From Cordylochernes scorpioides (lineage: Eukaryota > Arthropoda > Arachnida > Pseudoscorpiones > Chernetidae): a DNA stretch of 64,000 bases. Where the stretch lies: the NCBI GenBank assembly GCA_030710605.1, contig CP092863.1:117225072-117289071 (forward strand). The letters run 5' to 3'. Below the pieces are notes generated by a model. The model saw only the letters and a program-made list of their open reading frames with translations. It was not told the origin of the DNA and ran no database searches. This document shows, piece after piece, positions 91-55,392 of the stretch; position 1 is the first letter of the stretch, and the number at the start of each line of letters is the position of its first letter. Position numbers and translations under genes: made by a program.

Positions 91-312
91 AAGAAGAAGA
101 TGGTTCCTTATATTAAATGGGTTCCGGACATAATCTCGACTACCAAAATTCCGACAAGGTTATAACCTCGGCAGACCAAAATCCCTACATAATAAAAATC
201 CACACAACAAATTTGAAAATTCAAACAAGTGTCAACATTTGAGTACATAGCAAATTAAGACCTTAAGACGTGAATGTTTCTTTCACACCTAAATTAAATT
301 TCTATATGTAAT

Positions 313-530
313 TATACTGTCCTAAAAGCTTATGTCCATATTTTGCTTAAACCCATAACCAATATTCCACCCTTCAGAATAACATATATAATCAGAATGA
401 TCCAATACAGTATTAGAGCTCTGAGAAGCGGTCTGGTGGATTAAATTTGCGAAACCGCTGGGAGGGTTCACCACTGATGAGCCAAGTCTTCCCAATATAT
501 TTTTTCATTGCAGTAAGGACAGTAGAAGTT
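313..530 (+). ncRNA. Reordered hammerhead-like unit, locus L1
   Basis: One copy of the dispersed unit described at 26077-26292. The core runs from 427 to 485: AGCGGT then C then TGGTG; TTTGC then GAA then ACCGCT; CACCA then CTGATGA then GCCAA. Stems I and III pair fully; stem II has one central mismatch. The unit ends with GGACAGTAGAA, complementary to a diverged start. Sequence down to the motif GATGGCGC near 590 is also shared with other copies. Confidence 0.6.
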
Positions 531-1028
531 TGATTTATGTGTGAAAGAAGCATTCGCGTCTTAATGTTTAAATTTTGTTATATATAGATGGCGCATTAAT
601 ATTTATGTTAATTTGAGTACATATTATTTTTACTGTTCTGAGGGATAGATTATTTATAAAATATTTTATTTTACAACAACAAAATGAAATTAATTTTTTT
701 CTCTCTAATTTAATTTGTCGGGTATTTGGTCTGTCGGAATTGGTCCTGGTTGATGTATATTAAGATCAATCATCCACTACACAGATGATCCCGAAAAAAA
801 GTTATTTTAAAGTCTTAAAAAATACAATAATTTTTCATGCTTATCTAAAAAACAGGAAGGATGACAGATTTGCTGTGTTATAGGGTACACGGAGGTACTC
901 CAAGTCAACGGTAAGAGAAACCAACTTATGTTCCTATGTACCACGGTATATGTTTTGTGTTGGTAAATATCAGGTTTTAGGCGCGATTATCTTCAACTCA
1001 TAGTCAAGACAATCCAATACAATAGTAG

Positions 1029-1086
1029 AACGGTCTGGATATTAATTTGGTGAAACCGCTGAGAGCGTTCATCACTGATGAACCAA
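1029..1086 (+). ncRNA. Reordered hammerhead-like core, locus L2
   Basis: A diverged copy. Stem II is TTGGT with ACCAA, a full pair in which both strands differ from the TTGGC/GCCAA of the 26-kb copies. Stem III has one mismatch. Stem I is weakened to about three pairs. The GAAA and CTGATGA segments are intact. Confidence 0.5.
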
Positions 1087-1148
1087 GCCTTCTTCTCTAA
1101 TAGTTTCTTTCGTGTCAGTAAGATCTGTAGAGAATTTTTAATAATTTA

Positions 1149-1335: not shown

Positions 1336-1422
1336 GTATATAAATATAGAACCATCAAGCACGGATCTTTCTTTTCTAAAATAAATCAAACTTTTCTATT
1401 GTCCGTATTGCGATAAAAAATA

Positions 1423-1500
1423 TTGGGAAGGCTTGGCTCATCAGTCGTGAACCTTCTCAGCGGTTTATCTAATTTAATCTACCAGATACTGTTTTGAACG
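1423..1500 (-). ncRNA. Decayed reordered hammerhead-like unit, locus L3
   Basis: On the minus strand this contains CTGATGA followed by GCCAAG, and AACCGCTGAGAAGG as in other units. The GAAA segment is changed to ATAAA and stem I is poor, so it is probably inactive. The same decayed copy recurs at 61661-61738. Confidence 0.4.
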
Positions 1501-2067
1501 ATTGTGTTTAAATATACTACACTGAATGGTGAAATCTTAGTTAGGGTATTCAAGAGAAAAGTATGTAAATAAGTGTTTAGTAGACAGCAGAAATACATAT
1601 ATAGATATTTACACATCGTGGCAATGTTCTACCACGAACGACGAAAGACAAGAGGAATTAGGGTAAAACAAAATAATCAAAAGGCAATATCTATATATAA
1701 GTGTATGCTGGGAGAAAGTGTCCCCAGGGGAGGAAACTGTCACCAGGTCAGTCGTTCCACCAGGATTCATCCCCGGACGTCACCCAACCCGACCTGGAAA
1801 TTGACTTCTGTTTGATGAAATAGAAGTTATCGGGAATCCATTAGGTCTAGGAGTTCCCCAACATTGTCTTTTAAGTGCTATTTCCAAATTTATCACCCTA
1901 AATAAGATGTAGGTCTTTGATGAAAATAACTTCTTAGATTACCAGCGTATCCGACTTCTTTGCGACGCACTATACAAACATATTATTATTATCAATTAGA
2001 AATTCAATTGTCATTTATCGGTAAAATATGTCATTATTATTTTTGGCAATATGTTTGTTACGATATA
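1501..2067. other. No recognised feature
   Basis: Short open frames here (for example 1573-1815) are repeated in copy 2 only because the region is duplicated. I see no domain, codon bias or homology that would support a gene. Confidence 0.5.
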
Positions 2068-13002: not shown

Positions 13003-13073
13003 CCATCGGTGGTTCAGTGGTAGAATGCTCGCCTGCCACGCGGGCGGCCCGGGTTCGATTCCCGGCCGATGCA
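13003..13073 (+). tRNA. tRNA-Gly (GCC)
   Basis: A 71-nt cloverleaf. The anticodon stem is CTCGC/GCGGG around the loop CTGCCAC, giving anticodon GCC. The D arm is GGTTCAGTGGTAGAA-like (internal A box) and the T arm holds GGTTCGATTCC (B box). The acceptor strand ends CCGATGC plus discriminator A, and a TTTT terminator follows directly. Position 1 is C where G is expected, so the first acceptor pair is C-C; the other six pairs are intact. It could be a live gene with a weak terminal pair or a slightly decayed copy. It lies 5' of, and perhaps within, a Helitron-like element ending at 13219. Confidence 0.85.
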
Positions 13074-14789: not shown

Positions 14790-15815
14790 CACTTATGGAC
14801 AAAACTTAAGGAAGTTGAAAGGCGTGTGTCTTCAGTAAAGGTCACTGTAATATCTTTCAGAGTTATTGTCTCAATCCCAATGGTAGAAGGTACAACTTCC
14901 TTGAGTTTTGTCCATGAGTGTATATTGGTTATCTCGTGTGTCTTCAATAAAGGTCACTGTAACATCTTTCAGAGTTATTGTCTCAATCCCGATGGTAGAA
15001 AGTACAACTTCCTTAAGTTTTGTCCATGAGTGTATATTGGTTTTCTCGTGTGTCTTCAATAAAGGTCACTGTAACATCTTTCAGAGTTATTGTCTCAATC
15101 CCAATGGTAGAAGGTACAACTTCCTTGAGTTTTGTCCATGAGTGTATATTGGTTATCTCGTGTGTCTTCAATAAAGGTCACTGTAACATCTTTCAGAGTT
15201 ATTGTCTCAATCCCGATGGTAGAAAGTACAACTTCCTTAAGTTTTGTCCATGAGTGTATATTGGTTTTCTCGTGTGTCTTCAATAAAGGTCACTGTACCA
15301 TCTTTCAGAGTTATTGTCTCAATCCCAATGGTAGAAGGTACAACTTCCTTAAGTTTTTCCATGAGTGTATATTGGTTATCTCGTGTGTCTTTAATAAAGG
15401 TCACTGTAACATCTTTCAGAGTTATTGTCTCAATCCCGATGGTAGAAGGTACAACTTCCTTAAGTTTTGTCCATGAGTGTATATTGGTTATCTCGTGTGT
15501 CTTCAATAAAGGTCACTGTAATATCTTTCAGAGTTATTGTCTCAATCCCGATGGTAGAAGGTACAACTTCCTTAAGTTTTGTCCATGAGTGTATATTGGT
15601 TATCTCGTGTGTCTTCAATAAAGGTCACTGTAATATCTTTCAGAGTTATTGTCTCAATCCCGATGGTAGAAGGTACAACTTCCTTAAGTTTTGTCCATGA
15701 GTGTATATTGGTTATCTCGTGTGTCTTCAATAAAGGTCACTGTAATATCTTTCAGAGTTATTGTCTCAATCCCGATGGTAGAAGGTACAACTTCCTTAAG
15801 TTTTGTCCATATGTG
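14790..15815 (+). repeat. Tc1-type MITE with about nine 112-bp units
   Basis: Begins CACTTATGGACAAAACTTAA after TA and closes with TTAAGTTTTGTCCATATGTG before TA. Between them lie about nine 112-bp tandem units, each ending TTTGTCCATGAGTGTATA. Units differ from the 118-bp type by a 6-base deletion next to TCCCGATGG. Some neighbouring units alternate in shared variants (GATGGTAGAAAG and AATGGTAGAAGG), suggesting duplication of blocks larger than one unit. Confidence 0.85.
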
Positions 15816-15864
15816 TAGATGGCGCCATCTATATATAGTAAATGAAAGCATTAAAGCACGGATA

Positions 15865-22273: not shown

Positions 22274-22904
22274 TATAAATACGTGTATATATATGTGTGC
22301 AGATTCCCGAATGTATAAAAATAAACACAAAATTCCCCACATGAGTCAGATAAATATTTACACACATTGTGAAAAGATTAAATGTATACAAATTGTAAAT
22401 TTGAAGTAGTTTTTCCAAAAAAAGAAGGCACACCGAGGCCGTAGACAGAACGGCGGCGGGATTTAATCCTTCCAGCACGTCACGCTCGTCTGTCACCCTT
22501 CCAAAAAAAAGTTGAAATGAAAAAAAAAAAATCTTGAAGCTCTCCTACTGCCTGCACGTCTCCCATTCTAGGTCAGCCACCGCCGCGTAAACTGATGGAA
22601 AAAACGCTTCTCGAAATAACTTCGTGCACTTGAAATGTCGGTCATAGACGCATAGTCTGCTTTTATTTTATGTTGCCCTTCTGACAGGGGTCGTCTCTTG
22701 GCTGGTATATCTCTCCAGTCTCACTACACTGACCTCGGAGATAGTGATTTCATCAGATAATACAATAAATGTAGGTTCCAATATAGGTAGATTTACATCT
22801 AGATAATTTAAATAATTGACATCAATTTTAATGGCTAAGAGAAAATTTAATGTTTGCGGAAGAGCGATTGCTCGAAGCATTTTATATATTTATTATTGTA
22901 TGTA
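22274..22904. other. No recognised feature
   Basis: Unique sequence with short homopolymers; no gene supported. Confidence 0.4.
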
Positions 22905-23113
22905 ATTCTACTGTCCTCAAAGCTTATGTCCATAGTTTATCTAAAATACCCATTCCAAGAGTCCAGCTCAAGCTCACTATAAAAGGAAGTTCCAAAAAAG
23001 TTGCAATATAACAGCGGTATGGTAGATTAAACTGGCGAAACCGCTGGGAGGGTTCACCACTGATGAGCCATGCGCTTCCTTTAATTTTTCCATTGCAGTA
23101 AGGGCAGTAAAAA
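22905..23113 (+). ncRNA. Reordered hammerhead-like unit, locus L5
   Basis: The core is 23013-23071: AGCGGT-A-TGGTA; CTGGC-GAA-ACCGCT; CACCA-CTGATGA-GCCAT. Stem III pairs fully; stems I and II each lose one outer pair. The cleavage base is A rather than C, still an allowed H. The unit starts at TTCTACTGTCCT (22907) and ends AGGGCAGTAAAA, so the terminal repeat is partly decayed. Confidence 0.55.
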
Positions 23114-24272
23114 TTGTTTAATTTTCAAAAGAATCTTACGCGTCTATAATAGTTTCAAATATTCATAAGAGAGAAGCTATTTATCGTAAAGTTTCGGGAG
23201 GAGGAAGGTATACCTGTATCAAAAAAGGGAAACTCTCCTTTAAAATGTCTTTGTATTCTAGGTTACAACATAAGTGACTTCAAAACTATGGAAAATTAGC
23301 TTTAAATCTTTATCTTCTCAATATGTGTTTCCTTTAAATAGCAAGGTTATATGCAGTGTTAGGTCCAAGTGTGAACAAAATTGTCCATGTCTCCTTCAAA
23401 TAAACAGGTGACTGGCTACATCAAATATTTTCTACTTACCTTTGTCCATGAGTGTACAAAAGAATTCCCAGCGGTTGTATCCAACATAAATTACACACGA
23501 GGTGGTTTCAATATATCCATGATTATCACGATCGCTATGCACTCCACGTATATGACCTACCCTCCCTCCTCTTGGCGATATTTCAGTAAGGAGATATGCA
23601 AATGGGAGCCTCATTCGGTAAGTCCGCGCGCGATTTGCATAGTCAGCCCAAGCAAATAAATCTTAACCATGCAAATTTTTCCTTTCCCCTAGTAATAAAA
23701 TAAAGTGTGTCAGGATGAGTTTACACATAGCTTTTCCTCCTGCATGCCAGGAAAAGAAAGGCTCGGTTTATTAAGCGATGCTTCAACTTGGACAAAAAGT
23801 AGGCCTGAAGTGTTGTGTGATGTTTATTGTTGACAAGTTCTTCATACCCTCGTTATAACAAAGTTTCATTATGTGTCTCATATCTCTCTCACTAATTGTC
23901 TTCATCAAACGTCTTCGAAGGTATTTATTTGAACACAAAAGTCTTTATTAAGATACATTTATTAATTATTTATTTAATCAAATGGTTATTTAATTATATA
24001 TTTTAAAATGATTATTATTAATATAATAATTGTAGATTGTACATATATTTGATATACAGTGAAATTTCCATCAGATAGTTTCTTACTTTGGTCTTGTGGA
24101 TCTAATGTCTACATGATTAGTTTAAATCAAAGAGCCTTGATAAAAAGAGGCGTTTTGCCCCCTAGAAATATTGATTAAATGATAAATTTAGATCCAATAT
24201 ATGCCTTTTATTTATTTATATATTTATTATTATTATACATATGGATTTAATACAAAGCAATAACACGCCATC
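23114..24272. other. No gene; isolated MITE end
   Basis: TTTGTCCATGAGTGTAC at 23441-23457 is one terminus of the Tc1-type MITE, preceded by its GTGACTGGCTACATCAAA-like interior. The rest is unassigned. Confidence 0.4.
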
Positions 24273-24525
24273 TATACATATAAAATGAAAGGATTTAAAA
24301 GCACGAGTGTTTCTTTTATACATAATACAAACTTCTACTGCCCTTACTGCGATGAAAAAAAATATTGGGAGGGCTTGGCTCATCAGTGGTGAACCCTCCC
24401 AGCGGTTTCGCCACTGATGAGCCAAGCCCTCCCAATATATTTTTTCATCGCAGTAAGGGCAGTAGAAGTTTGTATTATGTATAAAAGAAACACTCGTGCT
24501 TTTAAATCCTTTTATTTTATATACA
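24273..24525. repeat. Large palindrome of the reordered hammerhead unit
   Basis: Two half units face each other around a centre of about 18 bp (24395-24412). Each arm of about 120 bp contains the CTGATGAGCCAAGCCC segment and the CGCAGTAAGGGCAGTAGAAG end. The AC half (GAAA segment) is reduced to a fragment at the centre. Such a head-to-head fold-back cannot form the complete core but would form a long hairpin in DNA or RNA. Confidence 0.8.
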
Positions 24526-25420
24526 TGGATTTACCATGGAGTCTCTGGAAATGAGAAAAAAAAGACATTTAATGATAATAATGAAATTTATATACAGGAA
24601 AACTTAATCAAGACAATCAAGCTAAAAAATAGATTGGTCTGGGTAAATCCGAGGAAAAGAAAAATATATAAAAATAAAATAATATAAAAACTGGTATTTA
24701 CAAATGAGACATTCATACCTACACAAGCCTCTCGTATAAGATCTCTAGTCTGAACATAATTTCCTCTGTCTCCTTCAATAAATAAAAAATAAAAAACGAT
24801 GGCATCAAAATATGCAACTTCCTTAAGTTTTGTCCACGCGTGTAATATTGGACAAACCCATTTTGTAATAAGTCATGAGAAGCCAACCACGTTAGCATTT
24901 CAGGTTGTTGGTCCTCATCAACGTGTTGCTGGCAATACATCAAATAACCAGGCATAGGTTGGTGGCGTTCCTGATCTCCCAGAGTTTTCTTCATATCGCT
25001 AGTCTTTTGTCGATATAAGGTCTTCTCCGTGAGTTTAACTTGAATTATAAGTTGAATGAGACCACCTGGAGTAATGTAATATCAAAAGTAGAACAAACGG
25101 TAAAGTGAGGAGTTTCTTTTATCCTCTTCACTTCAAAATTTGTTTTGATAATATTCAGGTGATTCAATACCATTCCACTCTGATACCTGGCATCTTTCTC
25201 CTGCGAAGTACTTCAAAGGGACCAGCAACCTGAGGAAATGGAAATAGCCATCTTCAATCCTCTTCAATACCACCTCCCTCTCTGTTCATGTACCTGGCAT
25301 CCTACAAGATGGTTTCAAAGGGACCAACAACCTGAGATATGACCATCTTCTATACCTTCCCTCTATCGAGCGATCATATGTATGTCAGAGAAAGAATAAA
25401 ATCAATTATTATAAAATATA
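24526..25420. other. No gene; decayed hammerhead and small tandem
   Basis: On the minus strand 24883-24935 reads CACG-TTGATGA-AGG-like stem II-GAAA-ATGCTA-ACGTGG, a hammerhead with the first core base changed. 24820-24842 is one Tc1-type MITE end. The block TACCTGGCATC and GGGACCA(G/A)CAACCTGA recurs twice (25183-25232 and 25290-25340). Confidence 0.4.
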
Positions 25421-25632
25421 TACAAAGCAATAACGCGCCATCTATACATATAAAATAAAATGATTTAAAAGCGCGAATGTTTCTTTTATAATAATACAAA
25501 CTTCTACTGCCCTTACTGCGATGAAAAAATATTGCAGTAAGGACAGTAGAAGTTTGTATTATTATAAAAGAAACATTCGCGCTTTTAAATCATTTTATTT
25601 TAAATGTATAGATGGCGCGTTATTGCTTTGTA
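25421..25632. repeat. Inverted repeat at the head of the 370-bp array
   Basis: Arms from TACAAAGCAATAACGCGCC to its complement GGCGCGTTATTGCTTTGTA meet at the centre near 25527. The right arm continues as the first, partial unit of the tandem array. This looks like an array whose first unit was inverted. Confidence 0.75.
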
Positions 25633-25821
25633 TTAATTTATGCCTAACTGGCCTTGTATTTATAGTTTGCGGAAGAGCATTGCTCGATGCAAATATTTAA
25701 ATGTAATTCTACTGTCCTATAAGCTTATGTCCATAGTTACTTGAAAACCATTTCTAAGATTCCATCCTTCAGTGTAGCATATAAAAGCAGAATGATCCAA
25801 TAAAGTTTTAGAGCTCTGAGA

Positions 25822-25880
25822 AGCGGTCTGGTGGATTAAATTGGCGAAACCGCTGGGAGGGTTCACCACTGATGAGCCAA
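25822..25880 (+). ncRNA. Reordered hammerhead-like core, locus L7
   Basis: AGCGGT-C-TGGTG (25822-25833); TTGGC-GAA-ACCGCT (25841-25854); CACCA-CTGATGA-GCCAA (25864-25880). Stem I (5 bp), II (5 bp) and III (6 bp) pair perfectly and every invariant base is present: the GTC cleavage triplet, A15.1-U16.1, C15.2-G16.2, G10.1-C11.1. Only the strand order differs from known hammerheads. Two adjacent hairpins are the alternative fold: AGCGGT/ACCGCT and GGGAGGG/CCCTCCC, whose loops are complementary to each other at two sites. Confidence 0.7.
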
Positions 25881-26191
25881 GCCCTCCCAAAATATTTTTT
25901 CATCGCAGTATGGACAGTAGAAGTTTGTATTATTATAAAAGAAACATTCGCGCTTTTAAATCATTTTATTTTAAATGTATAGATGGCGCGTTTTTCTTTG
26001 TATTAATTTATGCCTAACTGGCCTTGTATTTATAGTTTGCGGAAGAGCATTGCTCGATGCAAATATTTAAATGTAATTCTACTGTCCTATAAGCTTATGT
26101 CCATAGTTACTTGAAACCCATTTCTAAGATTCCATCCTTCAGTGTAGCATATAAAAGCAGAATGATCCAATACAGTTTTAGAGCTCTGAGA

Positions 26192-26250
26192 AGCGGTCTG
26201 GTGGATTAAATTGGCGAAACCGCTGGGAGGGTTCACCACTGATGAGCCAA
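26192..26250 (+). ncRNA. Reordered hammerhead-like core, locus L8
   Basis: Core identical to that at 25822-25880, set in the 216-bp unit 26077-26292 that I use as the reference for the family. Confidence 0.7.
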
Positions 26251-26562
26251 GCCCTCCCAAAATATTTTTTCATCGCAGTAAGGACAGTAGAAGTTTGTAT
26301 TATTATAAAAGAAACATTCGCGCTTTTAAATCATTTTATTTTATATGTATAGATGGCGCGTTATTGCTTTGTATTAATTTATGCCTAACTGGCCTTGTAT
26401 TTATAGTTTGCGGAAGAGCATTGCTCGATGCAAATATTTAAATGTAATTCTACTGTCCTATAAGCTTATGTCCATAGTTACTTGAAAACCATTTCTAAGA
26501 TTCCATCCTTCAGTGTAGCATATAAAAGCAGAATGATCCAATACAGTTTTAGAGCTCTGAGA

Positions 26563-26621
26563 AGCGGTCTGGTGGATTAAATTGGCGAAACCGCTGGGAG
26601 GATTCACCACTGATGAGCCAA
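26563..26621 (+). ncRNA. Reordered hammerhead-like core, locus L9
   Basis: Same core as L7 and L8. One substitution changes GGGAGGGTT to GGGAGGATT between the two halves, outside the three hammerhead helices. Confidence 0.7.
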
Positions 26622-26763
26622 GCCCTCCCAAAATATTTTTTCATCGCAGTAAGGACAGTAGAAGTTTGTATTATTATAAAAGAAACATTCGCGCTTTTAA
26701 ATCATTTTATTTTATATATAAAATATATATATATATATACTCCAGGTGATTATACAACTTATA

Positions 26764-28048: not shown

Positions 28049-29352
28049 TAGATCCGAACTTTGAATTCATCGAATGGTATATAAGAAATTAATCCTCAAA
28101 AAAACCCTTCAACTACTGAGATGCCATCTCCAATTTAACCTCCGCTGTGTATACTTCCAGCCCTTCGAACCTACTAGAAGCTCTTCATCGTACAATTTGT
28201 TCTTATTTTGATAACTGTAATTACATTCATGGTGTTCCTGGTATTCCTTACAACCATCCCTCCAGTAATACCTTTTTCCACTCCGAGTATCAGCGGATAA
28301 GATGGCTAAATATACTTCTCCTTTTGAACTACCTAGTTAGCCATATCTCTTCTATCTATTTCCATGAACTGTTCACAACTTGTGGATATCTGCGCAATTT
28401 GGAGAGCACACTCATCATGACACGCTTGTTCGGCGGCACAACTACTAAAATAGGAAGAATATAGAGAAGATTAATATGATCCCTGCGCAAGATCGTGAAG
28501 CATTTCATGATCAGGAGACATGTACAATGGCTCTTTATTCTCCGTCACCCTGTCAATTTGTGTCCAAAGTGGATGTTTAACAACAGCTCTCGAGTAAATC
28601 TACCAAGATCTATCAGATAGAATGGTGGTGTGGAGGAAGTAGGCAGAATTTCCTCTCCACCCCGTCCGTCTCTCTATAAACGGAAACCTGCCCGAATGTT
28701 GCTGGCAGGCAGAGAGAGAGAGTGGACTTTATTTTGGTTGGTTCCCCCCTCCGGCCAGGAAGTGGACAGAATATTAATTACTGAGAGATATTTTAGCATA
28801 AGGGAAGTTTTCCCTGTCTAGGATTAGTATCGGAAACTATAAAGAAACCGTCGCCCGTTAGATCCTGACATTTTACATCGAAGACCGATTCGCTATTGAG
28901 ACAAATTGACAGCGCTTCCTTTTTTTCCCCCATAATAAAAGTTATTTCTACAGCTATTTACTGCAATAACAGAAAAGGGATAGCATGGCTCGTCATTTTA
29001 GAACCCATCCAGTGGTTTTGTCCATTTATTTTCCAGAGAATCCTGTATATACTATTGTATTATATTGATTGTCTCATATAGTCTGTGCATTTATGAAGGA
29101 ATATATAAATAGGTTGAGGATATTTGAAGAAATATATCTGTGTGAAGTCTATAGGACTGTGTAGAAATATATATACCTGGAAATTAAGGATTATGTGCAT
29201 ATTGTGTGTTGTGAGTATTGCTCTTCCTCAAAATAATAACAACAATAATTATAACCATTAGGTAACATGTCGCATCCTAGCGTCCTCTATCGCTCAAAAT
29301 TGAGATTTTTTTTTTTTTGTTCTTAAAAATAAAAGACACTTCGGCCAGAAAA
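28049..29352. other. No recognised feature
   Basis: Unique sequence; small frames at 28147-28464 and 28630-28821 have no domain. A short GCTGGCAGGCAGAGAGAGAG tract lies at 28700. Confidence 0.4.
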
Positions 29353-29412: not shown

Positions 29413-30596
29413 AAATAAAATTTAAAAAACGTTTGGCAAGACAGTATAAATGTTTGAAATAATTTTGTTAACGCCACTTTTTTCCCCATAATTCAAACTT
29501 ATTTCCACAGATTTCTATTGGAATATTGAAAATAGAAAAGATAGGGAATGGTTCATTTTACTAATGTACCTTTTCTCAACGGCGTGTTGATGTAACTGAC
29601 ATGAAGATCTTCGTGTGGTCTGAGAGATATTGGACAAGGAAACTGGTTCGGAAAACTCGTTCTATAGAAGTTTTTTTTTTTAAATAACAAATTTCTCAAC
29701 AGTCTGTGTCTCAGACTATTACCTAAATCCAATCCCAGTAGGGAAGAGACTCTTATTCGATTTTCACCAAATTGACAACTTCATAAATGTTAGCCATACA
29801 TAACTGCATAGTTTTAGCTCTCCCTATAATTTGCATAGTCTATATTTATGCAACTTTTCAGAAAGTCTCTTCTCTCTATTATTATCAATATAAAAATCGA
29901 TATAAACTTGTTTAGCATTTATCAAGTTTCTTTGAATAGCTTTCTTTGTTTCTTTTGTGTTCTGAATTTGTTCCATAAAACATTCAAGAGAGCGAAAAAA
30001 AATGGGAGGGGGGTGAAGGAGGCAGAAAGGGAGTGTTGACAGTGCGGCCAATATTTGAACAACAAGGCTTTTGTTTCCTGGGTGCCTATTCATTAGGAGT
30101 TGGAGCCCCCGGGGGAACAATGTGAGTCGAGGAAGAAGACATGCATGTATCCAGGCTAATAGGGCCTCGCCACACAACAATGCCGTCATAAAGGAAGAAA
30201 ATTTTTAATGGTTGAAGACTTCTTCCTAAATTCCTAATTAAGGCGTTCTTTGTGAAAGTGGCCTGGAAACGTTTGACATCGTACAATGCCTTTCACAGCG
30301 ACAATCATTTCTTCAAAATCTTGTTAGTCATTGGGGGTAATGGTGAGTACGGCTGTACGCAACTCTCTCCAAGGGAGGTCTTCCGGGGAGGTGCTGTTCC
30401 GGCGGTACATGTGGACTGAACACCTTATAGCTCAACATCACTTCTATCTGTTCTGTGAAGTAAGATAGGTATGCGCTAACTATAGTGTAGAGACTCAATA
30501 TATACACCTGCTTTGGACATCGTCATCTTCTACAAATACCTAAGAACAAGTGTCTATTATTGGAAATATTTCATCTTCTATACATATTTTTAAACG
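29413..30596. other. No recognised feature
   Basis: Opposing frames at 29824-30286 show no family. The run at 30100-30180 is less AT-rich but not coding by any sign I can see. Confidence 0.4.
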
Positions 30597-31640
30597 TGCA
30601 TCTTCTTTAGAAACGTTCTTTTCTACATCTATCATAGAAGTGCACCTTCTTTAGAAACGTCGTTTTCTACATCTATCTTAGAAGTACACCTTCTTTAGAA
30701 ACGTCGTTTTCTACATCTATCTTAGAAGTGCACCTTCTTTAGAAACGTCGTTTTCTACATCTATCTTAGAAGTACACCTTCTTTAGAAACGTCGTTTTGT
30801 ACATCTATCTTAGAAGTGCACCTTCTTTAGAAACGTCGTTTTGTATATCTATCTTAGAAGTACACCTTCTTTAGAAACGTCGTTTTGTACATCTATCTTA
30901 GAAGTGCACCTTCTTTAGAAACGTCGTTTTCTACATCTATCTTAGAAGTGCACCTTCTTTAGAAACGTCGTTTTCTACATCTATCTTAGAAGTGCACCTT
31001 CTTTAGAAACGTCGTTTTGTACATCTATCTTAGAAGTACACCTTCTTTAGAAACGTCGTTTTGTACATCTATCTTAGAAGTGCACCTTCTTTAGAAACGT
31101 CGTTTTGTATATCTATCTTAGAAGTACACCTTCTTTAGAAACGTCGTTTTGTACATCTATCTTAGAAGTGCACCTTCTTTAGAAACGTCGTTTTCTACAT
31201 CTATCTTAGAAGTGCACCTTCTTTAGAAACGTCGTTTTCTACATCTATCTTAGAAGTGCACCTTCTTTAGAAACGTCGTTTTGTACATCTATCTTAGAAG
31301 TACACCTTCTTTAGAAACGTCGTTTTGTACATCTATCTTAGAAGTACACCTTCTTTAGAAACGTCGTTTTGTACATCTATCTTAGAAGTGCACCTTCTTT
31401 AGAAACGTCGTTTTCTACATCTATCTTAGAATGCACCTTCTTTAGAAACGTCGTTTTCTACATCTATCTTAGAAGTGCACCTTCTTTAGAAACGTCGTTT
31501 TCTACATCTATCTTAGAAGTGCACCTTCTTTAGAAACGTCGTTTTATACATCTATCTTAGAAGTGCACCTTCTTTAGAAACGTCGTTTTCTACATCTATC
31601 TTAGAAGTGCACCTTCTTTAGAAACGTCGTTTTATACACC
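30597..31640. repeat. 44-bp satellite, about 24 units
   Basis: Unit TTCTTTAGAAACGTCGTTTT followed by a 24-base second half ending AGAAGTGCACC. Variants are restricted to a few positions (CTAC, GTAC, GTAT or ATAC; GTGCACC or GTACACC). Units 5-10 and 11-16 repeat the same variant order, so a 264-bp higher-order block was duplicated. One unit near 31427 lacks a G. No frame runs through it. Confidence 0.92.
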
Positions 31641-31724
31641 TTTCTCTCGCATCATATACCTACTATTTCAAATGTCACATCTTCTAGAAAATCTTGGAAA
31701 CACATACCACACACTTATATTAAA

Positions 31725-32812: not shown

Positions 32813-33435
32813 GACAAAACTTAAGGAAGTGGAAAGTATTTGATGTCGTCTGTTTTTTCTTAAGGAGACAGAGGCTGTTCACACTTAATATCTTTCAGAG
32901 TTATTGTCTCAATCCCGATATACATGCTAAAAGGTACAACTTCCTTAAGTTTTGTTCATGAGTGTATATTGGTTATCTCGTATGTCTTCAATAAAGGTCA
33001 CTGTAATATCTTTCAGAGTTATTGTCTCAATCCCGATATACATGCTAAAAGGTACAACTTCCTTAAGTTTTGTTCATGAGTGTATATTGGTTATCTCGTA
33101 TGTCTTCAATAAAGGACACTGTAATATCTTTCAGAGTTATTGTCTCAATCCCGATATACATGCTAAAAGGTACAACTTCCTTAAGTTTTGTCATGAGTGT
33201 ATATTGGTTATCTCCTGTGTCTTCAATAACGGTCACTGTAATATCTTTCAGAGTTATTGTCTCAATCCCGAAATACATGCTGAAAGGTACAACTTCCTTA
33301 AGTTTTGTCCATGAGTGTATATTGGTTATCTCGTGTGTCTTCAATAAAGGTCACTGTAATATCTTTCAGAGTTACTGTCTGAATCCCGATATACTTGCTA
33401 AAAGGTACAACTTCCTTAAGTTTTGTTCATGAGTA
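32813..33435 (+). repeat. Tc1-type MITE with about five 118-bp units
   Basis: Left end CACGTTCATGGACAAAAC plus the family interior (GATGTCGTCTG, GGAGACAGAGGCTG) and then tandem 118-bp units to a right end TTTTGTTCATGAGTA. It shows most clearly that the array is an amplified part of the MITE: the part nearest the right terminus is the repeated one. Confidence 0.85.
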
Positions 33436-42892: not shown

Positions 42893-43685
42893 TATATGAA
42901 AATGCTTATATAATCTTTATAATATTTCTGCGTCAACGTGAATCCTAGTCATGGAATTTAGAGAGAATCACCAAAATAGATCTAAATTGTGGGCAAAACC
43001 GAAAATTTGTCGAACTGTGGTCCTGGAAAACGTGTAGGTTGCACCGGTCCATCTCGATGTGGCTGGAGAACACTTCACGGAACAACTGGCCACTTGGGAT
43101 AAATACATCAGTAAGATAACGAACTTCCAGTAGTTTAAGAGAACTAAGAATAAACTTCTACTAAAGTACGATGTTATCGTAATTCAGGAGATTCACCAGT
43201 ATCACGCATTTTTCTTCTCCAGTTGCCATATCAACCAAAGATAGCCAATAATTAGTTTCCAGCAGTAAAACGTTACAATTAAAGTTCCTGTTCCAAATGA
43301 AGTTGAGATCCAGGTATCGATATACCAACCCGATTTACCCTTTTGGACGGAGGAGGGGCAAGAACTCACCCCGAAGATTCAACGTTTAGGTCAAGAAGCT
43401 GATTACAGAACTATATACCTCCCTTAATTGAAAAAGGATGTCGCTAGAGTTGATTTACAGGCAGTATGTAGATATCCTTTTTTTTTTTTTTTGTTCATGC
43501 TCCTCCTCTTTTCAATTAAGAATCGGTCAAAACATAATGATACTTTGCTTAAGCTTAAGTAATCAAGGATTTACATAAATAAGGATCACATCTTTAAAGT
43601 TAGAGAACAGCGTCGATTGTTGTCGACACTTTGTTCTTTTTTCCTCACTAACCGAAACTCGCTGGTATACTTAATTTTGATATTA
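42893..43685. other. No recognised feature
   Basis: Unique sequence with a T run at 43477-43491. No gene supported. Confidence 0.4.
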
Positions 43686-44117
43686 CACTCATGGACAAAA
43701 CTTAGGAAGTTGTACATTTTAGCATGCATATCGGGATTGAGACAATAACTCTGAAAGATATTACAGTGACCTTTATTGAAGACACACGAGATAACCAATA
43801 TACACTCATGGACAAAACTTAGGAAGTTGTACATTTTAGCATGCATATCGGGATTGAGACAATAACTCTGAAAGATATTACAGTGACCTTTATTGAAGAC
43901 ACACGAGATAACCAATATACACTCATGGACAAAACTTAGGAAGTTGTACATTTTAGCATGCATATCGGGATTGAGACAATAATTCTGAAAGATATTACAG
44001 TGACCTTTATTTAAGACACACGAGATAACCAATTGTGAACAGTCTCTGTCTCCTTCAAAAAAAGCAGACCATCGGCTTATCAAAGATTTTCCACTTCCAT
44101 ATGTTTTGTCCATGAGT
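43686..44117 (-). repeat. Tc1-type MITE with three 117-bp units
   Basis: Three near-identical units with ACTTAGGAAGTTGTACATTT (one A fewer than elsewhere), then the single-copy interior and a TTTTGTCCATGAGTA end. Because the unit here is divisible by three, a 175-codon frame runs through the array; it is not a gene. Confidence 0.85.
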
Positions 44118-45040: not shown

Positions 45041-45800
45041 AAAACAACAACAAATAGTCTTTATTAAAGACACACGTCCCATACAGGATTCTCCCAGATA
45101 CAGAAGTAAACATTATCTACAGAAAGTGGAGATTAACATCGACCTTTCTTCAAGTTGTATCCATCATCTGTGTTGTGTCTATTGAGTTTGAACATTTACA
45201 ACAACAAAAAAGTATTTATTAAGGACACACGTCCCATACAGGATTCTCCCAGATACAGAAGTAAACATTATCTACAGAAAGTGGAGATTAACATCGACCT
45301 TTCTTCAAGTTGTATCCATCATCTGTGTTGTGTCTATTGAGTTTGAACATTTACAACAACAAAAAAGTATTTATTAAGGACACACGTCCCATACAGGATT
45401 CTCCCAGATACAGAAGTAAACATTATCTACAGAAAGTGGAGATTAACATCGACCTTTCTTCAAGTTGTATCCATCATCTGTGTTGTGTCTATTGAGTTTG
45501 AACATTTACAACAACAAAAAAGTATTTATTAAAGACACACGTCCCATACAAAATTCTCCCAGATACAGAAGTAAACATAAAAGTTATCTAAAGAAAGTGG
45601 AGATTCGACCTTTCTTCAAGTTGGATCCATCATCTGTGTTGCACCAATTGAGTTTGAACATTTACAACAACAAAAAAGTATTTATTAAGGACACACGTCC
45701 CATACAGGATTCTCCCAGATACAGAAGTAAACATTATCTACAGAAAGTGGAGATTAACATCGACCTTTCTTCAAGTTGGATCTGTGTTGCTCCTATTGTC
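45041..45800. repeat. 155-bp tandem repeat, five units
   Basis: Each unit starts ACAACAACAA, then TTTATTAA(A/G)GACACACGTC, CATACAGGATTCTCCCAG and a further part ending near CATCTGTGTTG. The start is the reverse complement of the SINE-like tail with (TTG)n. Units 2 and 3 are the same by eye; unit 4 has an insertion. A head-to-tail multimer of a SINE-like end is the simplest reading. Confidence 0.85.

Positions 45801-45930: not shown

Positions 45931-45956
<26 letters not shown>
45930..45956. repeat. (TA)n microsatellite at the PLE insertion
   Basis: About 13 TA steps lie directly against the left PLE arm, and a similar run (53931-53951) follows the right end. The composite therefore sits inside a TA microsatellite. 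Confidence 0.85.
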
Positions 45957-45962
<6 letters not shown>

Positions 45963-47142
45963 AAATAAATAGTTGTATAGTTTTATAGTTAAGTATTCTA
46001 TTAAAATTATCTTCATTAGTTTGATTATTTAAATTCAAATTATAAATTTGTTAATTGTTATTATTTAGTATAGATAGAGAAAAAAAAAATTCTTTACTTC
46101 TAAAACATCCTCTAGTTAATTATATAATTATAATTAATAACAATAAAAAAATTAACAAAGTAACGTCTATTACATCGGCTTTTACACGTCATTCAGACAT
46201 ACTCTAATCCTATATATAGAATAATCGAAGAGATAATATATATAATAGTTAGAAAAAAGATAGAAAGACAGAACCATGTACTATTAATCAAACTAATAGA
46301 AAGAAAACAAAAAGTTTTGTAAATAAGGTAGATAAGATTGTTAGTATATATATATATTTTTTTATAATTTTATATTTTATTCTTTTTTTTTTAAAGATTT
46401 TTTAAATTTTTTTATTTTAAAATATGAATATAAAAAGTTGTATTTAGTAAAATAACTATAATATGAATTAACTTTTATTATAAGTTTGGTTATTATGTTT
46501 TGAAACCCTAATGGTAGACCAGACATATACAAAAAACTTAAATTGGAGTAATTATTGAAAAAAGAGGTCTGCTGAACCGGGACTTCTCAAATAGAAATTC
46601 AGCTTTTCAACATTTCATCCCTTCTCTATTATGTCTAGACCTCCTTTCAACCGTATTTTATGTGTTAATATAAAGTTACTACATTGAAACATTTATATGA
46701 ACAGATATAATGTGTACCTACCTTGTCCGCGAACGCCTTCAACTGTAAACAACTATTTCTGGATAACACATGTTGTGGGGGGGTGGGGACAAATTTAGAC
46801 CGAATTGTGGGAGAACAAGACATTCAAAGAATAAAGATAAGATAGTTAAGGGAAGAAATCCAAATTTTATAATCTTTACAGTCAGTTAAAATTAAAATAA
46901 TTGATTCAACACTTATTCATCTTTCAATATTCCTTTAAAAAGGCAAATTATTAGAGTTTAATAAAGCTATTAATTGTGAAAATTCACTTTTATTTAATTT
47001 CCATTTTCCTCCCCAGAAATTGGAGAATAAACAAAATGAATTATATACAATATTACTTTAAAAATCTTGTGAAAAAATCTTCAAATCAGCTATTTAATTT
47101 AAGTTTATCTAACTGTTGAAGATTATAAATTTGTAGTATTGA

Positions 47143-49623
47143 TTATTGAAAGAAATTATAGAAAGTTGATTTAATAAATGGATACTTCCATTTATTTTTT
47201 TTTAAGTATTTTATAATTGATATACTGTTGAAATATTTTACTTGTCTGATACTAAATTTGTTTTTAATAAATTCCATGTTTAAATTTTTAACATCTTCTA
47301 TGAAATTTTCTAATATATTATTTATTCTATAAAATCTTAGAAACTGACCAAAATATATACCTTTACAGCAATTTAATGAAATATTAGAATTCATATTACA
47401 GTATTTTATAATATTGAAATTATAATTACTTTTTTTATTATAAATTTTAATAGCATTATTTGTAAGGTCTATATTTAGGTCTAAAAAGTTAACTTTTTTG
47501 TTTCTATAAATTTTTTCATTGTTTTTAAGTTTCAAGTATTTAGGATAAATTTTAGGTATTAAATTTTTGAACTGTGGATTATTAAATATTATAATGTCAT
47601 CTACATAACGGAACATTTGCCAGTTAACATTATTTTGTAGAAAGTATTCTCTTTCGTACCAGAATAATATTAAGTTTGCTAATAACGGACTAGAAGACGT
47701 TCCCATGGGAACTCCTTCTGATTGAATATATATTTTATTTTTAAATTCTATATAGTTAAAATTTAAAAATGTTTCCAGTAGAGTTTTTGCTGTTTTAAGA
47801 TCTAATTTAATTGTTTTATATCTGTTATGAATAATTTTAATGTGGTAAGTTTTGTCATTAATGATTTCGTTAAATAAATTGGTTATTTTATTATTTAGAT
47901 CTCTTAAATTTATTTTAGAATATAGGTCCTCAAAGTCAAATGTGTGTACTGTTTCCATGTTTGTCCAATTGTTCATTAAATAGTTAATGATTTTTTTATT
48001 TGAGTCGATAAATTTATAATTATATTTATTAGTTAATTTATTTATAATAAATTGTAGTGTTGAAGCTAATTGTATATCAATGTTTTTTATAACTGAATTT
48101 ATACCAGATGTGATTGTTCTGAAAGAAATAGGTTTTTTGTGTAGTTTAGGAATTATATAGAACTTTGGTATGTTTGGATTTTTGTAGTGATTATAAATTT
48201 TTAGTGAATTTTCAACATTTTTGATGTCTTTTTTGATTTTTGTGGCTGTAGTTCTAGCAAAAGTGTATTTATGATTATTATCAATTTCCTTTTTTAGTAT
48301 ATCGTGGTATAGATTTTTACAAATTATAGATAAGTTATTGGAACATTTATCTATAGGAGTGATAATAAAGTCCTTCTGTAAATTAATTATATTTTCTTTA
48401 AAAGAAGGAATATCTGAATTAGGTTTTGTGTATTTAAGTGTATTATTATAATAATTTATAATTTCCTTTTTAATATTATGTTTCCATTCCAGAAAAGTAA
48501 ATTCTGGAATACTGTATTTTATACTAGTTTTATTTATGAAAATATCTATATCTTTTAATATAGATTTAATTGTATTATTATAATTGTGTTTAATTTGAGG
48601 TATATATTTATACCCTTTATTTAAAATATCCTGATATTCTGGATTTAAAAAAGAAAAATTGCTAGTTAATATATGACCTGAAAACTTATATTTATCAATA
48701 TAGTTGTTGCAATTACATTTAATTTTTTTATAATTTGCCAAATTATTAATAAATTGGTTATAATTGCAAACTAAATTACCTATATTTTTGTTGTATCTCC
48801 AGATTGTTTTGAAATTTAAATTTTTTATAGGGAAAAGATTATTAATGTTTTGGTTATTAAAAATATCATTAAACTTAATATGATTAAATAAATTGTTATT
48901 AAATTTAATGATAATATTAATGTTATTAGTAGATTGTTTAATTTTTCTGTATTTAAAGATGTCGTGTGTGATATCTGTTAATCTGTTAGTCAGATTATGA
49001 ATTTTAATATATTCTATAAGTTTGATAAATTTATTATTATTTAGTTTAAATAATGTTTTAATAAATTTATCGACGAAGTTGTTAGTGTACATTTGTTTTG
49101 GGTCCAGTAATTCTTCAAATTCAATGTAACCTAATTTATTGGTAGTTTTACCTCTAGTTTTATTAGGTTTAGTTTTGAATTCATTTTTTTTGTATTTGCA
49201 GCTGATTTCATAAGTTGAAATTTCTTCTGTTTGTGGTTTGTATGTGTAGTTTAATTCGTCATTAAGTCCATAAGGGAATAATGTGTTGTGTTTATAAATG
49301 TAGTTGTTTTCTAATAATAGTCGTTGTTTTTTGTTTTGACATATGTCTAGTATTTCTATCTTAAAGTTGTTAAAAGTATGTAATTTATTGTGTTCTTTCA
49401 TATATATATTACCAATTGATTTTTTAGCGTGGTTTCTATGTAGGTTTATTCGTATATTTAATGGATTACATGTTTGTCCTATATATGATAATTGACAAAT
49501 TTGGCATGTTAATTTATAAATAGTATTTACTAATTTACAACTAGTCGTTTGAAATGTATCATGGTTCTTAAGAGAGGGACAAGTTTGACAATTCTTTCTT
49601 AGGCAATTCTTAGCGAGTTTGAA
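47143..49623 (-). CDS. PLE protein, left copy: GIY-YIG nuclease plus reverse transcriptase
   Basis: The frame is open from 49623 to the stop at 47143. It includes the whole nuclease domain, but the leader has no ATG upstream of it: the first ATG in frame is at 49401, inside the nuclease. It may use a start supplied upstream or by splicing, or be a 5'-damaged copy. Its C-terminus is the longer version, ending WKYPFIKSTFYNFFQ, because an A run has 9 A here (10 in the right copy). The reverse transcriptase has FDFEDLYSKI (motif A), EGVPMGTSSSP (motif B), YVDD (motif C) and NFLDLNIDL (motif E), as in PLEs. It should nick target DNA and prime cDNA synthesis there. See 50134-52569 for domain positions. 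Confidence 0.9.
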   Translation of the reverse strand, partial: FKLAKNCLRKNCQTCPSLKNHDTFQTTSCKLVNTIYKLTCQICQLSYIGQTCNPLNIRINLHRNHAKKSIGNIYMKEHNKLHTFNNFKIEILDICQNKKQRLLLENNYIYKHNTLFPYGLNDELNYTYKPQTEEISTYEISCKYKKNEFKTKPNKTRGKTTNKLGYIEFEELLDPKQMYTNNFVDKFIKTLFKLNNNKFIKLIEYIKIHNLTNRLTDITHDIFKYRKIKQSTNNINIIIKFNNNLFNHIKFNDIFNNQNINNLFPIKNLNFKTIWRYNKNIGNLVCNYNQFINNLANYKKIKCNCNNYIDKYKFSGHILTSNFSFLNPEYQDILNKGYKYIPQIKHNYNNTIKSILKDIDIFINKTSIKYSIPEFTFLEWKHNIKKEIINYYNNTLKYTKPNSDIPSFKENIINLQKDFIITPIDKCSNNLSIICKNLYHDILKKEIDNNHKYTFARTTATKIKKDIKNVENSLKIYNHYKNPNIPKFYIIPKLHKKPISFRTITSGINSVIKNIDIQLASTLQFIINKLTNKYNYKFIDSNKKIINYLMNNWTNMETVHTFDFEDLYSKINLRDLNNKITNLFNEIINDKTYHIKIIHNRYKTIKLDLKTAKTLLETFLNFNYIEFKNKIYIQSEGVPMGTSSSPLLANLILFWYEREYFLQNNVNWQMFRYVDDIIIFNNPQFKNLIPKIYPKYLKLKNNEKIYRNKKVNFLDLNIDLTNNAIKIYNKKSNYNFNIIKYCNMNSNISLNCCKGIYFGQFLRFYRINNILENFIEDVKNLNMEFIKNKFSIRQVKYFNSISIIKYLKKNKWKYPFIKSTFYNFFQ

Positions 49624-50148: not shown

Positions 50149-52569
50149 AAGAATTGCCTAAGAAAGAATTGTCAAACTTGTCCCTCTCTTAAGAACCATG
50201 ATACATTTCAAACGACTAGTTGTAAATTAGTAAATACTATTTATAAATTAACATGCCAAATTTGTCAATTATCATATATAGGACAAACATGTAATCCATT
50301 AAATATACGAATAAACCTACATAGAAACCACGCTAAAAAATCAATTGGTAATATATATATGAAAGAACACAATAAATTACATACTTTTAACAACTTTAAG
50401 ATAGAAATACTAGACATATGTCAAAACAAAAAACAACGACTATTATTAGAAAACAACTACATTTATAAACACAACACATTATTCCCTTATGGACTTAATG
50501 ACGAATTAAACTACACATACAAACCACAAACAGAAGAAATTTCAACTTATGAAATCAGCTGCAAATACAAAAAAAATGAATTCAAAACTAAACCTAATAA
50601 AACTAGAGGTAAAACTACCAATAAATTAGGTTACATTGAATTTGAAGAATTACTGGACCCAAAACAAATGTACACTAACAACTTCGTCGATAAATTTATT
50701 AAAACATTATTTAAACTAAATAATAATAAATTTATCAAACTTATAGAATATATTAAAATTCATAATCTGACTAACAGATTAACAGATATCACACACGACA
50801 TCTTTAAATACAGAAAAATTAAACAATCTACTAATAACATTAATATTATCATTAAATTTAATAACAATTTATTTAATCATATTAAGTTTAATGATATTTT
50901 TAATAACCAAAACATTAATAATCTTTTCCCTATAAAAAATTTAAATTTCAAAACAATCTGGAGATACAACAAAAATATAGGTAATTTAGTTTGCAATTAT
51001 AACCAATTTATTAATAATTTGGCAAATTATAAAAAAATTAAATGTAATTGCAACAACTATATTGATAAATATAAGTTTTCAGGTCATATATTAACTAGCA
51101 ATTTTTCTTTTTTAAATCCAGAATATCAGGATATTTTAAATAAAGGGTATAAATATATACCTCAAATTAAACACAATTATAATAATACAATTAAATCTAT
51201 ATTAAAAGATATAGATATTTTCATAAATAAAACTAGTATAAAATACAGTATTCCAGAATTTACTTTTCTGGAATGGAAACATAATATTAAAAAGGAAATT
51301 ATAAATTATTATAATAATACACTTAAATACACAAAACCTAATTCAGATATTCCTTCTTTTAAAGAAAATATAATTAATTTACAGAAGGACTTTATTATCA
51401 CTCCTATAGATAAATGTTCCAATAACTTATCTATAATTTGTAAAAATCTATACCACGATATACTAAAAAAGGAAATTGATAATAATCATAAATACACTTT
51501 TGCTAGAACTACAGCCACAAAAATCAAAAAAGACATCAAAAATGTTGAAAATTCACTAAAAATTTATAATCACTACAAAAATCCAAACATACCAAAGTTC
51601 TATATAATTCCTAAACTACACAAAAAACCTATTTCTTTCAGAACAATCACATCTGGTATAAATTCAGTTATAAAAAACATTGATATACAATTAGCTTCAA
51701 CACTACAATTTATTATAAATAAATTAACTAATAAATATAATTATAAATTTATCGACTCAAATAAAAAAATCATTAACTATTTAATGAACAATTGGACAAA
51801 CATGGAAACAGTACACACATTTGACTTTGAGGACCTATATTCTAAAATAAATTTAAGAGATCTAAATAATAAAATAACCAATTTATTTAACGAAATCATT
51901 AATGACAAAACTTACCACATTAAAATTATTCATAACAGATATAAAACAATTAAATTAGATCTTAAAACAGCAAAAACTCTACTGGAAACATTTTTAAATT
52001 TTAACTATATAGAATTTAAAAATAAAATATATATTCAATCAGAAGGAGTTCCCATGGGAACGTCTTCTAGTCCGTTATTAGCAAACTTAATATTATTCTG
52101 GTACGAAAGAGAATACTTTCTACAAAATAATGTTAACTGGCAAATGTTCCGTTATGTAGATGACATTATAATATTTAATAATCCACAGTTCAAAAATTTA
52201 ATACCTAAAATTTATCCTAAATACTTGAAACTTAAAAACAATGAAAAAATTTATAGAAACAAAAAAGTTAACTTTTTAGACCTAAATATAGACCTTACAA
52301 ATAATGCTATTAAAATTTATAATAAAAAAAGTAATTATAATTTCAATATTATAAAATACTGTAATATGAATTCTAATATTTCATTAAATTGCTGTAAAGG
52401 TATATATTTTGGTCAGTTTCTAAGATTTTATAGAATAAATAATATATTAGAAAATTTCATAGAAGATGTTAAAAATTTAAACATGGAATTTATTAAAAAC
52501 AAATTTAGTATCAGACAAGTAAAATATTTCAACAGTATATCAATTATAAAATACTTAAAAAAAAAATAA
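50134..52569 (+). CDS. PLE protein, right copy: N-terminal GIY-YIG nuclease plus RT
   Basis: 811 codons from ATG 50134. Residues 8-16 form a C-x4-C-x2-C cluster; 36-66 are the GIY-YIG motif IYKLTCQICQLSYIGQT with R59 and H63/H66; the conserved LEN-YI then PYGLN part follows near 100-125. The reverse transcriptase spans about 400-740: DKCSNNLSII, YIIPKLHKK, D564 in motif A, GVPMGTSSSP, Y674-V-D-D677, NFLDLNIDL. Most PLEs have the nuclease after the RT; this order matches the permuted clade known as Naiad/Chlamys. One extra A in the run near 52560 ends the frame at YLKKK, about 19 residues short of the left copy. The loss is outside the catalytic parts, so function may survive. Codons are strongly A/T-ending. 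Confidence 0.92.
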   Translation: MINHIKNCLRKNCQTCPSLKNHDTFQTTSCKLVNTIYKLTCQICQLSYIGQTCNPLNIRINLHRNHAKKSIGNIYMKEHNKLHTFNNFKIEILDICQNKKQRLLLENNYIYKHNTLFPYGLNDELNYTYKPQTEEISTYEISCKYKKNEFKTKPNKTRGKTTNKLGYIEFEELLDPKQMYTNNFVDKFIKTLFKLNNNKFIKLIEYIKIHNLTNRLTDITHDIFKYRKIKQSTNNINIIIKFNNNLFNHIKFNDIFNNQNINNLFPIKNLNFKTIWRYNKNIGNLVCNYNQFINNLANYKKIKCNCNNYIDKYKFSGHILTSNFSFLNPEYQDILNKGYKYIPQIKHNYNNTIKSILKDIDIFINKTSIKYSIPEFTFLEWKHNIKKEIINYYNNTLKYTKPNSDIPSFKENIINLQKDFIITPIDKCSNNLSIICKNLYHDILKKEIDNNHKYTFARTTATKIKKDIKNVENSLKIYNHYKNPNIPKFYIIPKLHKKPISFRTITSGINSVIKNIDIQLASTLQFIINKLTNKYNYKFIDSNKKIINYLMNNWTNMETVHTFDFEDLYSKINLRDLNNKITNLFNEIINDKTYHIKIIHNRYKTIKLDLKTAKTLLETFLNFNYIEFKNKIYIQSEGVPMGTSSSPLLANLILFWYEREYFLQNNVNWQMFRYVDDIIIFNNPQFKNLIPKIYPKYLKLKNNEKIYRNKKVNFLDLNIDLTNNAIKIYNKKSNYNFNIIKYCNMNSNISLNCCKGIYFGQFLRFYRINNILENFIEDVKNLNMEFIKNKFSIRQVKYFNSISIIKYLKKK

Positions 52570-54880: not shown

Positions 54881-55095
54881 AAGAAGAAGATGGTTCCTTA
54901 TATTAAATGGGTTCCGGACATAATCTCGACTACCAAAATTCCGACAAGGTTATAACCTCGGCAGACCAAAATCCCTACTTAATCAAAATCCACACAACAA
55001 ATTGGAAAAACTAAACAAGTCTCAACATTGGAGTACATAGCAAATTAAGACATTAAGACGCGAATGTTTCTTTCACACCTAAATTAAATTTCTAT

Positions 55096-55392
55096 ATGTA
55101 ATTCTACTGTCCTACAAGCTTATGTCCATAGTTTGCTTAAATACTATTTCTGAGATTCCACCCTTCAGTGTAACTTTTAGTGGCTAACCGTGTCTGTGGT
55201 GATTGATAATCCTACACAATAATATACTGATAATCCCTTCAGTGTAGCATATATGAGCAGAATGATCCAATACAGTATTCGAGCTCTAAGAAGCGGTCTG
55301 GTAGATTGAATTGGTGAAACCGCTGGGAGGGTTTACCACTGATGTGCCAAGTCTTCCCAATATATTTTTTCATCGCAGTAAGGACAGTATAA
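55096..55392 (+). ncRNA. Reordered hammerhead-like unit, locus L11
   Basis: The core is 55292-55350: AGCGGT-C-TGGTA; TTGGT-GAA-ACCGCT; TACCA-CTGATGT-GCCAA. Stem I is TGGTA/TACCA, in which both strands differ from L1 (TGGTG/CACCA) and pairing is kept. Stem III is perfect, stem II has a G-U at the core. The last core base is T in CTGATGT, which may lower activity. Confidence 0.6.

Follow-up and report, generated by a model that had tools for sequence, protein, structure and literature searches.

A predicted type-SGC hammerhead ribozyme in a retrozyme-like repeat family of the pseudoscorpion Cordylochernes scorpioides

The tandem array and its ribozymes

The window, that is, the whole stretch of 64,000 nucleotides of Cordylochernes scorpioides DNA that was analysed, contains a tandem array with a GC content of 36% which, including an inverted piece at its left end, extends over approximately 25411–26720; blastn revealed further copies elsewhere in the window. 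TRF placed the array at 25534–26714 with a period of 371 and 3.2 copies. The spacing between ribozyme units is 370 and 371 bp, and not the 216 bp of the original prediction, and each full unit carries one ribozyme of 67 nt. No ORF of at least 100 amino acids was found within 25411–26720, and the unit does not have a Penelope-type reverse transcriptase of its own. The features of the array are the following.

25531–26720 (+): tandem array of three ribozyme-bearing units and a partial unit (TRF, blastn, spacing)
25411–25533 (-): partial unit in inverted orientation, a head-to-head piece at the array's left end (97.6% identity with the unit by blastn)
25822–25888 (+): predicted type-SGC hammerhead of unit 1, predicted cut 25828/25829
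26192–26258 (+): predicted type-SGC hammerhead of unit 2, predicted cut 26198/26199
26563–26629 (+): predicted type-SGC hammerhead of unit 3, predicted cut 26569/26570; G-to-A at the inner end of the clamp
26192–26205 (+): unit 2, block S (stem III strand AGCGG, UC, stem I strand TGGTGGA), from sequence
26211–26224 (+): unit 2, block G (stem II strand TTGGC, GAAA, stem III strand CCGCT), from sequence
26225–26231 (+): unit 2, clamp 5' strand GGGAGGG, 0 nt from stem III, from sequence; compensatory change at pair 2
26232–26250 (+): unit 2, block C (stem I strand TTCACCA, CTGATGA, stem II strand GCCAA), from sequence
26252–26258 (+): unit 2, clamp 3' strand CCCTCCC, from sequence

The ribozyme of unit 2 reads AGCGG-UC^UGGUGGA - UUAAA - UUGGC-GAAA-CCGCU - GGGAGGG - UUCACCA-CUGAUGA-GCCAA - G - CCCUCCC. 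Here stem III is formed by AGCGG/CCGCU plus U16.1-A15.1, stem I by UGGUG/CACCA lengthened by one G-U and one A-U, and stem II by UUGGC/GCCAA. In all three array units stems I, II and III have five to eight contiguous pairs each, and the core stands in S-G-C order with NUH, GAAA and CUGANGA. The original prediction had read the three blocks and their core bases (AGCGG-UC^UGGUG, UUGGC-GAAA-CCGCU and CACCA-CUGAUGA-GCCAA) correctly in all three units; its non-circular A-C-B order, equal to S-G-C, with crossing helices is borne out by the sequence and by the descriptor, and its cut at 26198/26199 agrees with ours. It had missed a fourth helix, GGGAGGG/CCCTCCC, which clamps stems I and II on their outer sides: the supposed 9-nt linker, GGGAGGGTT, consists of the 5' strand of this clamp, pairing with CCCTCCC, and two bases of stem I.

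The folding program takes nested pairs only, pseudoknots being outside plain folding. For unit 1 it gave the stem III hairpin beside the clamp hairpin (z -2.5, or -1.9 with flanks), while two older copies, at 22990 (z -1.0) and 55270 (z -0.05), folded no more stably than shuffles. The circular monomer showed modest stability (z -2.8 and -1.7).

The level of chance was assessed with a descriptor comprising CUGANGA, GAAA and UH in all six block orders, with at least three pairs in each stem and at least 11 Watson-Crick pairs in total. Four matches were found in the window, all SGC: three in the array (16, 16 and 17 pairs) and one at 23060 (14 pairs). At a threshold of 9, two CGS matches and a weak SGC match (1075) are added. 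When the window was shuffled 18,000 times with its dinucleotides preserved, SGC with at least 16 Watson-Crick pairs did not occur, any block order with at least 16 pairs occurred three times, and SGC with at least 11 pairs and a clamp of at least six occurred once; a separate run of 600 shuffles was consistent with this result. The SGC core and its order are beyond chance in the array, as had been claimed on the number of matching bases.

None of the Rfam 15 hammerhead models reaches its gathering score in the window, nor does any give a match at E <=10 in 25400–26760. Covariance models lack pseudoknots and are unable to describe the S-G-C order. No other known RNA family reaches its gathering score in 25400–26760 (E up to 10); the strongest matches below that score, to miRNA models and VR-RNA, sit on the inverted junction at 25413–25690, and the sole one to overlap a ribozyme is a weak snoU61 match on the minus strand (15.6 bits, E 5). 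In IMG/VR the exact C block occurs in four contigs, none of which (0/4) has a descriptor match, and the S-G pattern does not occur (0 matches); in GTDB genomes the S-G pattern occurs at 23 places, with a descriptor match at 0/23.

The original prediction held the A-C-B order to be unlike that of known hammerheads, which is outdated: S-G-C is a non-circular permutation published in 2023 as the type-SGC hammerhead, for which cleavage in vitro and break/rescue mutants were reported (Eckert et al. 2023, PMC10085705). That report predicts 583 such ribozymes. Five RNAs were assayed in vitro and all cleaved as expected, Table 1 gives rates of 0.007–0.19 per min, and break/rescue mutants in one RNA established four helices (PMC10085705). 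According to the same source a helix joins stems I and II, the linker between these stems is typically 3 nt, 0–44 nt separate the joining helix from stem III, and the RNAs cut as single units and require the joining helix. The array units resemble type SGC, as given there by the HRIMA-1 motif and its variants, in the S-G-C order, in all core bases and stems I–III, in the helix that connects stems I and II on their outer sides, and in the 0 nt between this helix and stem III, which lies inside the published range. They differ in the longer stem I–II linker (5–7 nt) and in their setting, since the published examples are described as coming from metatranscriptomes, with none in the genomes of known organisms so far as that account extends, whereas here a high-copy tandem and dispersed element resides in arthropod nuclear DNA (PMC10085705). 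Judged by these traits the ribozyme is a predicted further member of type SGC. The block order itself, published in 2023, is not new; its setting in an arthropod genome and a retrozyme-like family appears to be, and among open-licence papers we found no report of a non-circular permutation in an animal genome.

Copies in the genome and covariation

Beyond the array, the window holds these copies.

250–611 (+): single-unit insertion, ribozyme 427–493, flanked by TTTGAGTACATA at 238–249 and 612–623
1027–1131 (+): old divergent copy, stem II TTGGT/ACCAA, with a duplicate at 56075–56179
1357–1652 (-): old degenerate copy, with a duplicate at 61595–61890
22845–23142 (+): divergent copy (75% identity; blastn, descriptor), ribozyme 23013–23079, cut triplet GUA
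24247–24530 (strand not assigned): two head-to-head copies, junction inside the ribozyme (blastn)
55086–55484 (+): copy of the 250–611 insertion in a duplicated segment, ribozyme 55292–55358, stem I TGGTA/TACCA, CTGATGT

The duplicated segments at approximately 180–1700, 54960–56300 and 61595–61948 share their element copies, and stem I differs between duplicates, being TGGTG/CACCA in one and TGGTA/TACCA in the other.

The genome assembly consists of 2.62 Gb in 24 contigs. Its content agrees with an arthropod host: for Chitin_bind_4, a family that marks arthropod cuticle proteins, the 150 matches scored, out of 333 candidates, exceed the cut-off, and none of 14 control genomes gave a match. 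A search of it with the 91-nt ribozyme region gave 811 first-look candidates, and the 40 that were scored are spread over 17 of the 24 contigs. The pattern GGTC-N14-22-GAAACCGCTG-N9-16-CTGATGA, in which stem I, stem II and clamp are unconstrained, occurs at 35,086 places (17,713 + 17,373), and its reversed control at none. Not all of these need be full ribozymes: among 97 copies that were read several have lost the clamp, and one (L084) looks unrelated beyond the pattern. The 97 copies, from 80 regions, were drawn from the first 100 places listed, three listed places being left out; a simple rule assigned 69 of them to subfamily 1 and the other 28 to subfamily 2. With the divergent copy of the window (1000–1115) as query, 2,927 candidates were obtained, and the 40 matches scored among them resolve into 30 loci, most of which belong to an intermediate, third subfamily. 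By their sequences, the copies would fall into at least three related subfamilies.

The original prediction had offered covariation in helices I–III as the test by which it could be refuted. The outcome is mostly favourable: stem I pair 2 and the stem II pair 10.1–11.1 vary in a paired manner, one stem I pair is broken in two subfamilies, and stem III, almost invariant and in part constrained by the pattern used for sampling, says nothing because it hardly varies. Between subfamilies, compensatory changes affect the clamp as well as stems I and II. Over the 97 copies stem I pair 2 is GC in 65, AU in 25, GU in 2 and unpaired in 5; the corresponding figures for clamp pair 2 are 62, 26, 3 and 6. 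Stem I pair 4 is U-A in 67 copies and an A.A mismatch in 27 (subfamily 2), while pairs 5 and 7 of this stem are unpaired in 16/97 and 30/97, respectively.

An alignment (A2) of 74 sequences combines 45 of the 46 distinct copies of the first set (minus L084) with 26 of the 30 new loci and with three copies from the window, whose bounds are slightly shifted in two cases; it omits L151, L159 and L166, which did not fit the regular expression, and L162, which repeats another sequence. In it 91.9% of 1808 cells pair. Two-sided change was seen in 53 cells as against 23.4 +/- 9.8 after shuffling (reached in 0/500), a measure that relatedness inflates, and in 8–21 cells when the partners were slid. 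Five pairs show change on both sides and 19 pair types occur, neither figure exceeding the shuffled level (reached in 269/500 and 445/500 shuffles, respectively). Clamp pair 2 is AU in 34 sequences and GC in 32; stem I pair 2 is GC in 52, GU in 9 and AU in 8; and the stem II pair 10.1–11.1 is CG in 38, UG in 20 and UA in 9. Alignment A1 alone (46 copies, including L084) gave the same picture.

When one unit of subfamily 1 is set against one of subfamily 2, the ribozyme is identical at 57/63 positions and the remainder at 184/288. The unit also has the two strands of a long-range helix.

26281–26292 (+): 5' strand AGGACAGTAGAA, 12 pairs with 26448–26459
26448–26459 (+): 3' strand TTCTACTGTCCT, pairing with 26281–26292

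In the subfamily 2 unit AGGACAGTAGAA/TTCTACTGTCCT is replaced by AGGTCTGTAGAG/CTCTACAGACCT, so that the 12 pairs are retained through three two-sided changes; with one unit per subfamily compared, this points to selection acting on RNA outside the ribozyme as well. The blocks GCGGAAGAGC.TTGCTCGATGCA and CCTATAAGCTTATGTCCATAGTT, also outside the ribozyme, are kept between the two subfamily units.

Insertion structure and the probable mode of spread

Thirty loci were sampled together with their flanks; they hold single, head-to-head or tandem copies, L049 and L050 having at least five units. Two outer 3' ends were seen in 13 of 23 non-redundant subfamily 1 loci, and in 11 of these 13 head-to-head composites a 3' end at unit position 177–197 is joined to one at 145–156, the exceptions being L043 (179/179) and L044 (230/155). 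The other 10 loci have one 3' end in 177–197 or 145–156 and a variable 5' end. In the third and second subfamilies (29 loci) the 3' ends lie mainly at 86–106 and 166–186; since they were measured against the subfamily 2 unit, some may mark the loss of similarity. Direct repeats of at least 9 bp (9–14 bp) border 15 of 27 closed loci, 11 of these being distinct and one an AT microsatellite; the other 12 loci do not have a repeat of that length, and at random positions direct repeats average about 5 bp. We read the end zones, inversions and flanking repeats as the probable result of target-primed reverse transcription in which a multimeric or circular template is copied after priming on both strands of the target, in agreement with the proposed life cycle of metazoan retrozymes (PMC7229834).

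The element shares further traits with the metazoan (non-LTR) retrozymes as described by Cervera and de la Pena (2020, PMC7229834): a unit within 150–450 bp (here 370–371), a GC content below 50% (here 36%), an organisation ranging from monomers to tandem multimers (here at least five units) without a coding region, and target-site repeats of more than 4 bp where present (here at least 9 bp at 15/27 loci). Unlike the present element, those retrozymes carry a type I hammerhead and are reported to make RNA circles (PMC7229834), which for our element are a prediction. Tandem, partly inverted hammerhead copies are likewise a trait of Penelope-like elements with minimal type I hammerheads, which that paper also mentions. 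Unlike these, our unit does not encode a reverse transcriptase, and blastn found no sequence shared at E 1e-3 between it and the Penelope-like reverse transcriptase ORFs at 47–53 kb.

The element is, as far as its sequence tells, a putative variant of the retrozyme kind. We consider it quite likely that the 371-bp unit is a retrozyme-like non-autonomous retroelement which has a predicted type-SGC hammerhead in place of type I, and which spreads via RNA circles and copying in trans. A transcript through the tandem units would fold locally, the stem III and clamp hairpins lying side by side, and the loops of these hairpins would pair through stems I and II to give an ordinary hammerhead active site. 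Cleavage after GUC in every unit (25828/25829, 26198/26199 and 26569/26570) would release monomers of about 371 nt, whose folding the conserved 12-bp long-range helix may aid and which a host RNA ligase would seal into circles. In subfamily 2 the monomers would measure 368 nt. A reverse transcriptase acting in trans, from a Penelope-like or other non-LTR element, would copy the circle, at times for more than one round, and priming on both target strands would produce the tandem, 5'-truncated and head-to-head insertions.

Spread by linear multimeric RNA, with a ribozyme that works as type SGC but whose cleavage only sets the 5' end of the RNA, and with no circles, seems to us unlikely. Such a role of cleavage may hold for Penelope-like elements, and the arrays, the two zones of 3' ends and the head-to-head insertions require a multimeric template and two-strand priming rather than circles. 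Against it stand the long-range helix inside the monomer, which is maintained by compensatory change, and the arrays of at least five units (L049, L050), which suit copying round a circle; published metazoan retrozymes, moreover, make circles (PMC7229834).

It is quite improbable that the core is built between neighbouring units or molecules (A1-B1-C2), in a classic topology with very long loops, as the original prediction had proposed as one way of forming it. The units do occur in tandem, and with the same three stems such a core is compatible with the covariation in stems I–III. The clamp, however, brackets block C within one unit and covaries, several insertions consist of a single unit, and the published SGC RNAs cut singly and need the joining helix (PMC10085705). 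A shared core is less likely because the clamp and the linkers fit a local fold and the published relatives cut as single units; nor is it needed, the fourth helix and linkers matching the published single-unit architecture (PMC10085705).

It is scarcely credible that the likeness arose by chance, or that an inert remnant was multiplied as repeat DNA and owes its pairing to shared descent alone. Most copies derive from few masters, shuffle controls overstate the significance for related sequences, and stem I of subfamily 2 has broken pairs; but no SGC core of at least 16 pairs arose in the 18,000 shuffles, the core is kept at 90% while the remainder of the unit falls to 64%, and compensatory changes are fixed in subfamilies that expanded separately. 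To a small Pol III gene as the conserved stretch, with the hammerhead likeness secondary, we assign next to no probability: a TATA box (TATAAAAG) about 45 bp upstream and TTTTTT directly after the clamp are present in the window units, but the absence of the T run in subfamily 2 copies led us to reject it, and no RNA family reaches its gathering score there.

Returning to the retrozyme-like element, SGC hammerheads would then extend beyond environmental RNA, and we think it probable that this one is a working, selected processing ribozyme of a circle-spread arthropod family of at least three subfamilies and more than 35,000 core matches; animal elements may be the source or ancestor of the environmental SGC ribozymes. 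The role of the published SGC hammerheads could not be studied because they are known from the RNA of unidentified organisms. With its tens of thousands of copies, an animal genome provides both a host and a natural library of compensatory variants. There the role of a scrambled-order hammerhead is now testable, and permuted hammerheads can be compared with candidate classic type I ones from the same genome. Model searches bound to the usual strand order overlook an abundant ribozyme family.

Other features of the window

A relaxed scan for type I (CGS) hammerheads, run without a chance control of its own, found no match inside the array; it gave candidate minimal hammerheads at 19834 (+), 10925 (-) and 7385 (-), and degenerate candidates at 3373 (+) and 63476 (+). 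The segments at 45943–49611 and 50149–53818 are inverted arms of about 3.7 kb per side, 100% complementary and 537 nt apart, which represent either a recent duplication or an assembly artefact. Each arm contains an intact Penelope-like reverse transcriptase ORF with a GIY-YIG-like N-terminal stretch, Pfam giving no match; we found no open-licence paper combining Naiad, GIY-YIG and hammerhead. One satellite family, of about 112–118 bp, forms five arrays on both strands (2063–2751, 14823–15817, 32882–33434, 43684–44033 and 62297–62856), and other tandem arrays lie at 30596–31645 and 45044–45782, with units of 44 bp and 155 bp. A U6-like sequence at 28422–28514 (+) scores 44.8 against a gathering score of 44 and has a deletion, and is perhaps a pseudogene. 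A tRNA match (59.5 bits) is located at 13003–13073 (+).
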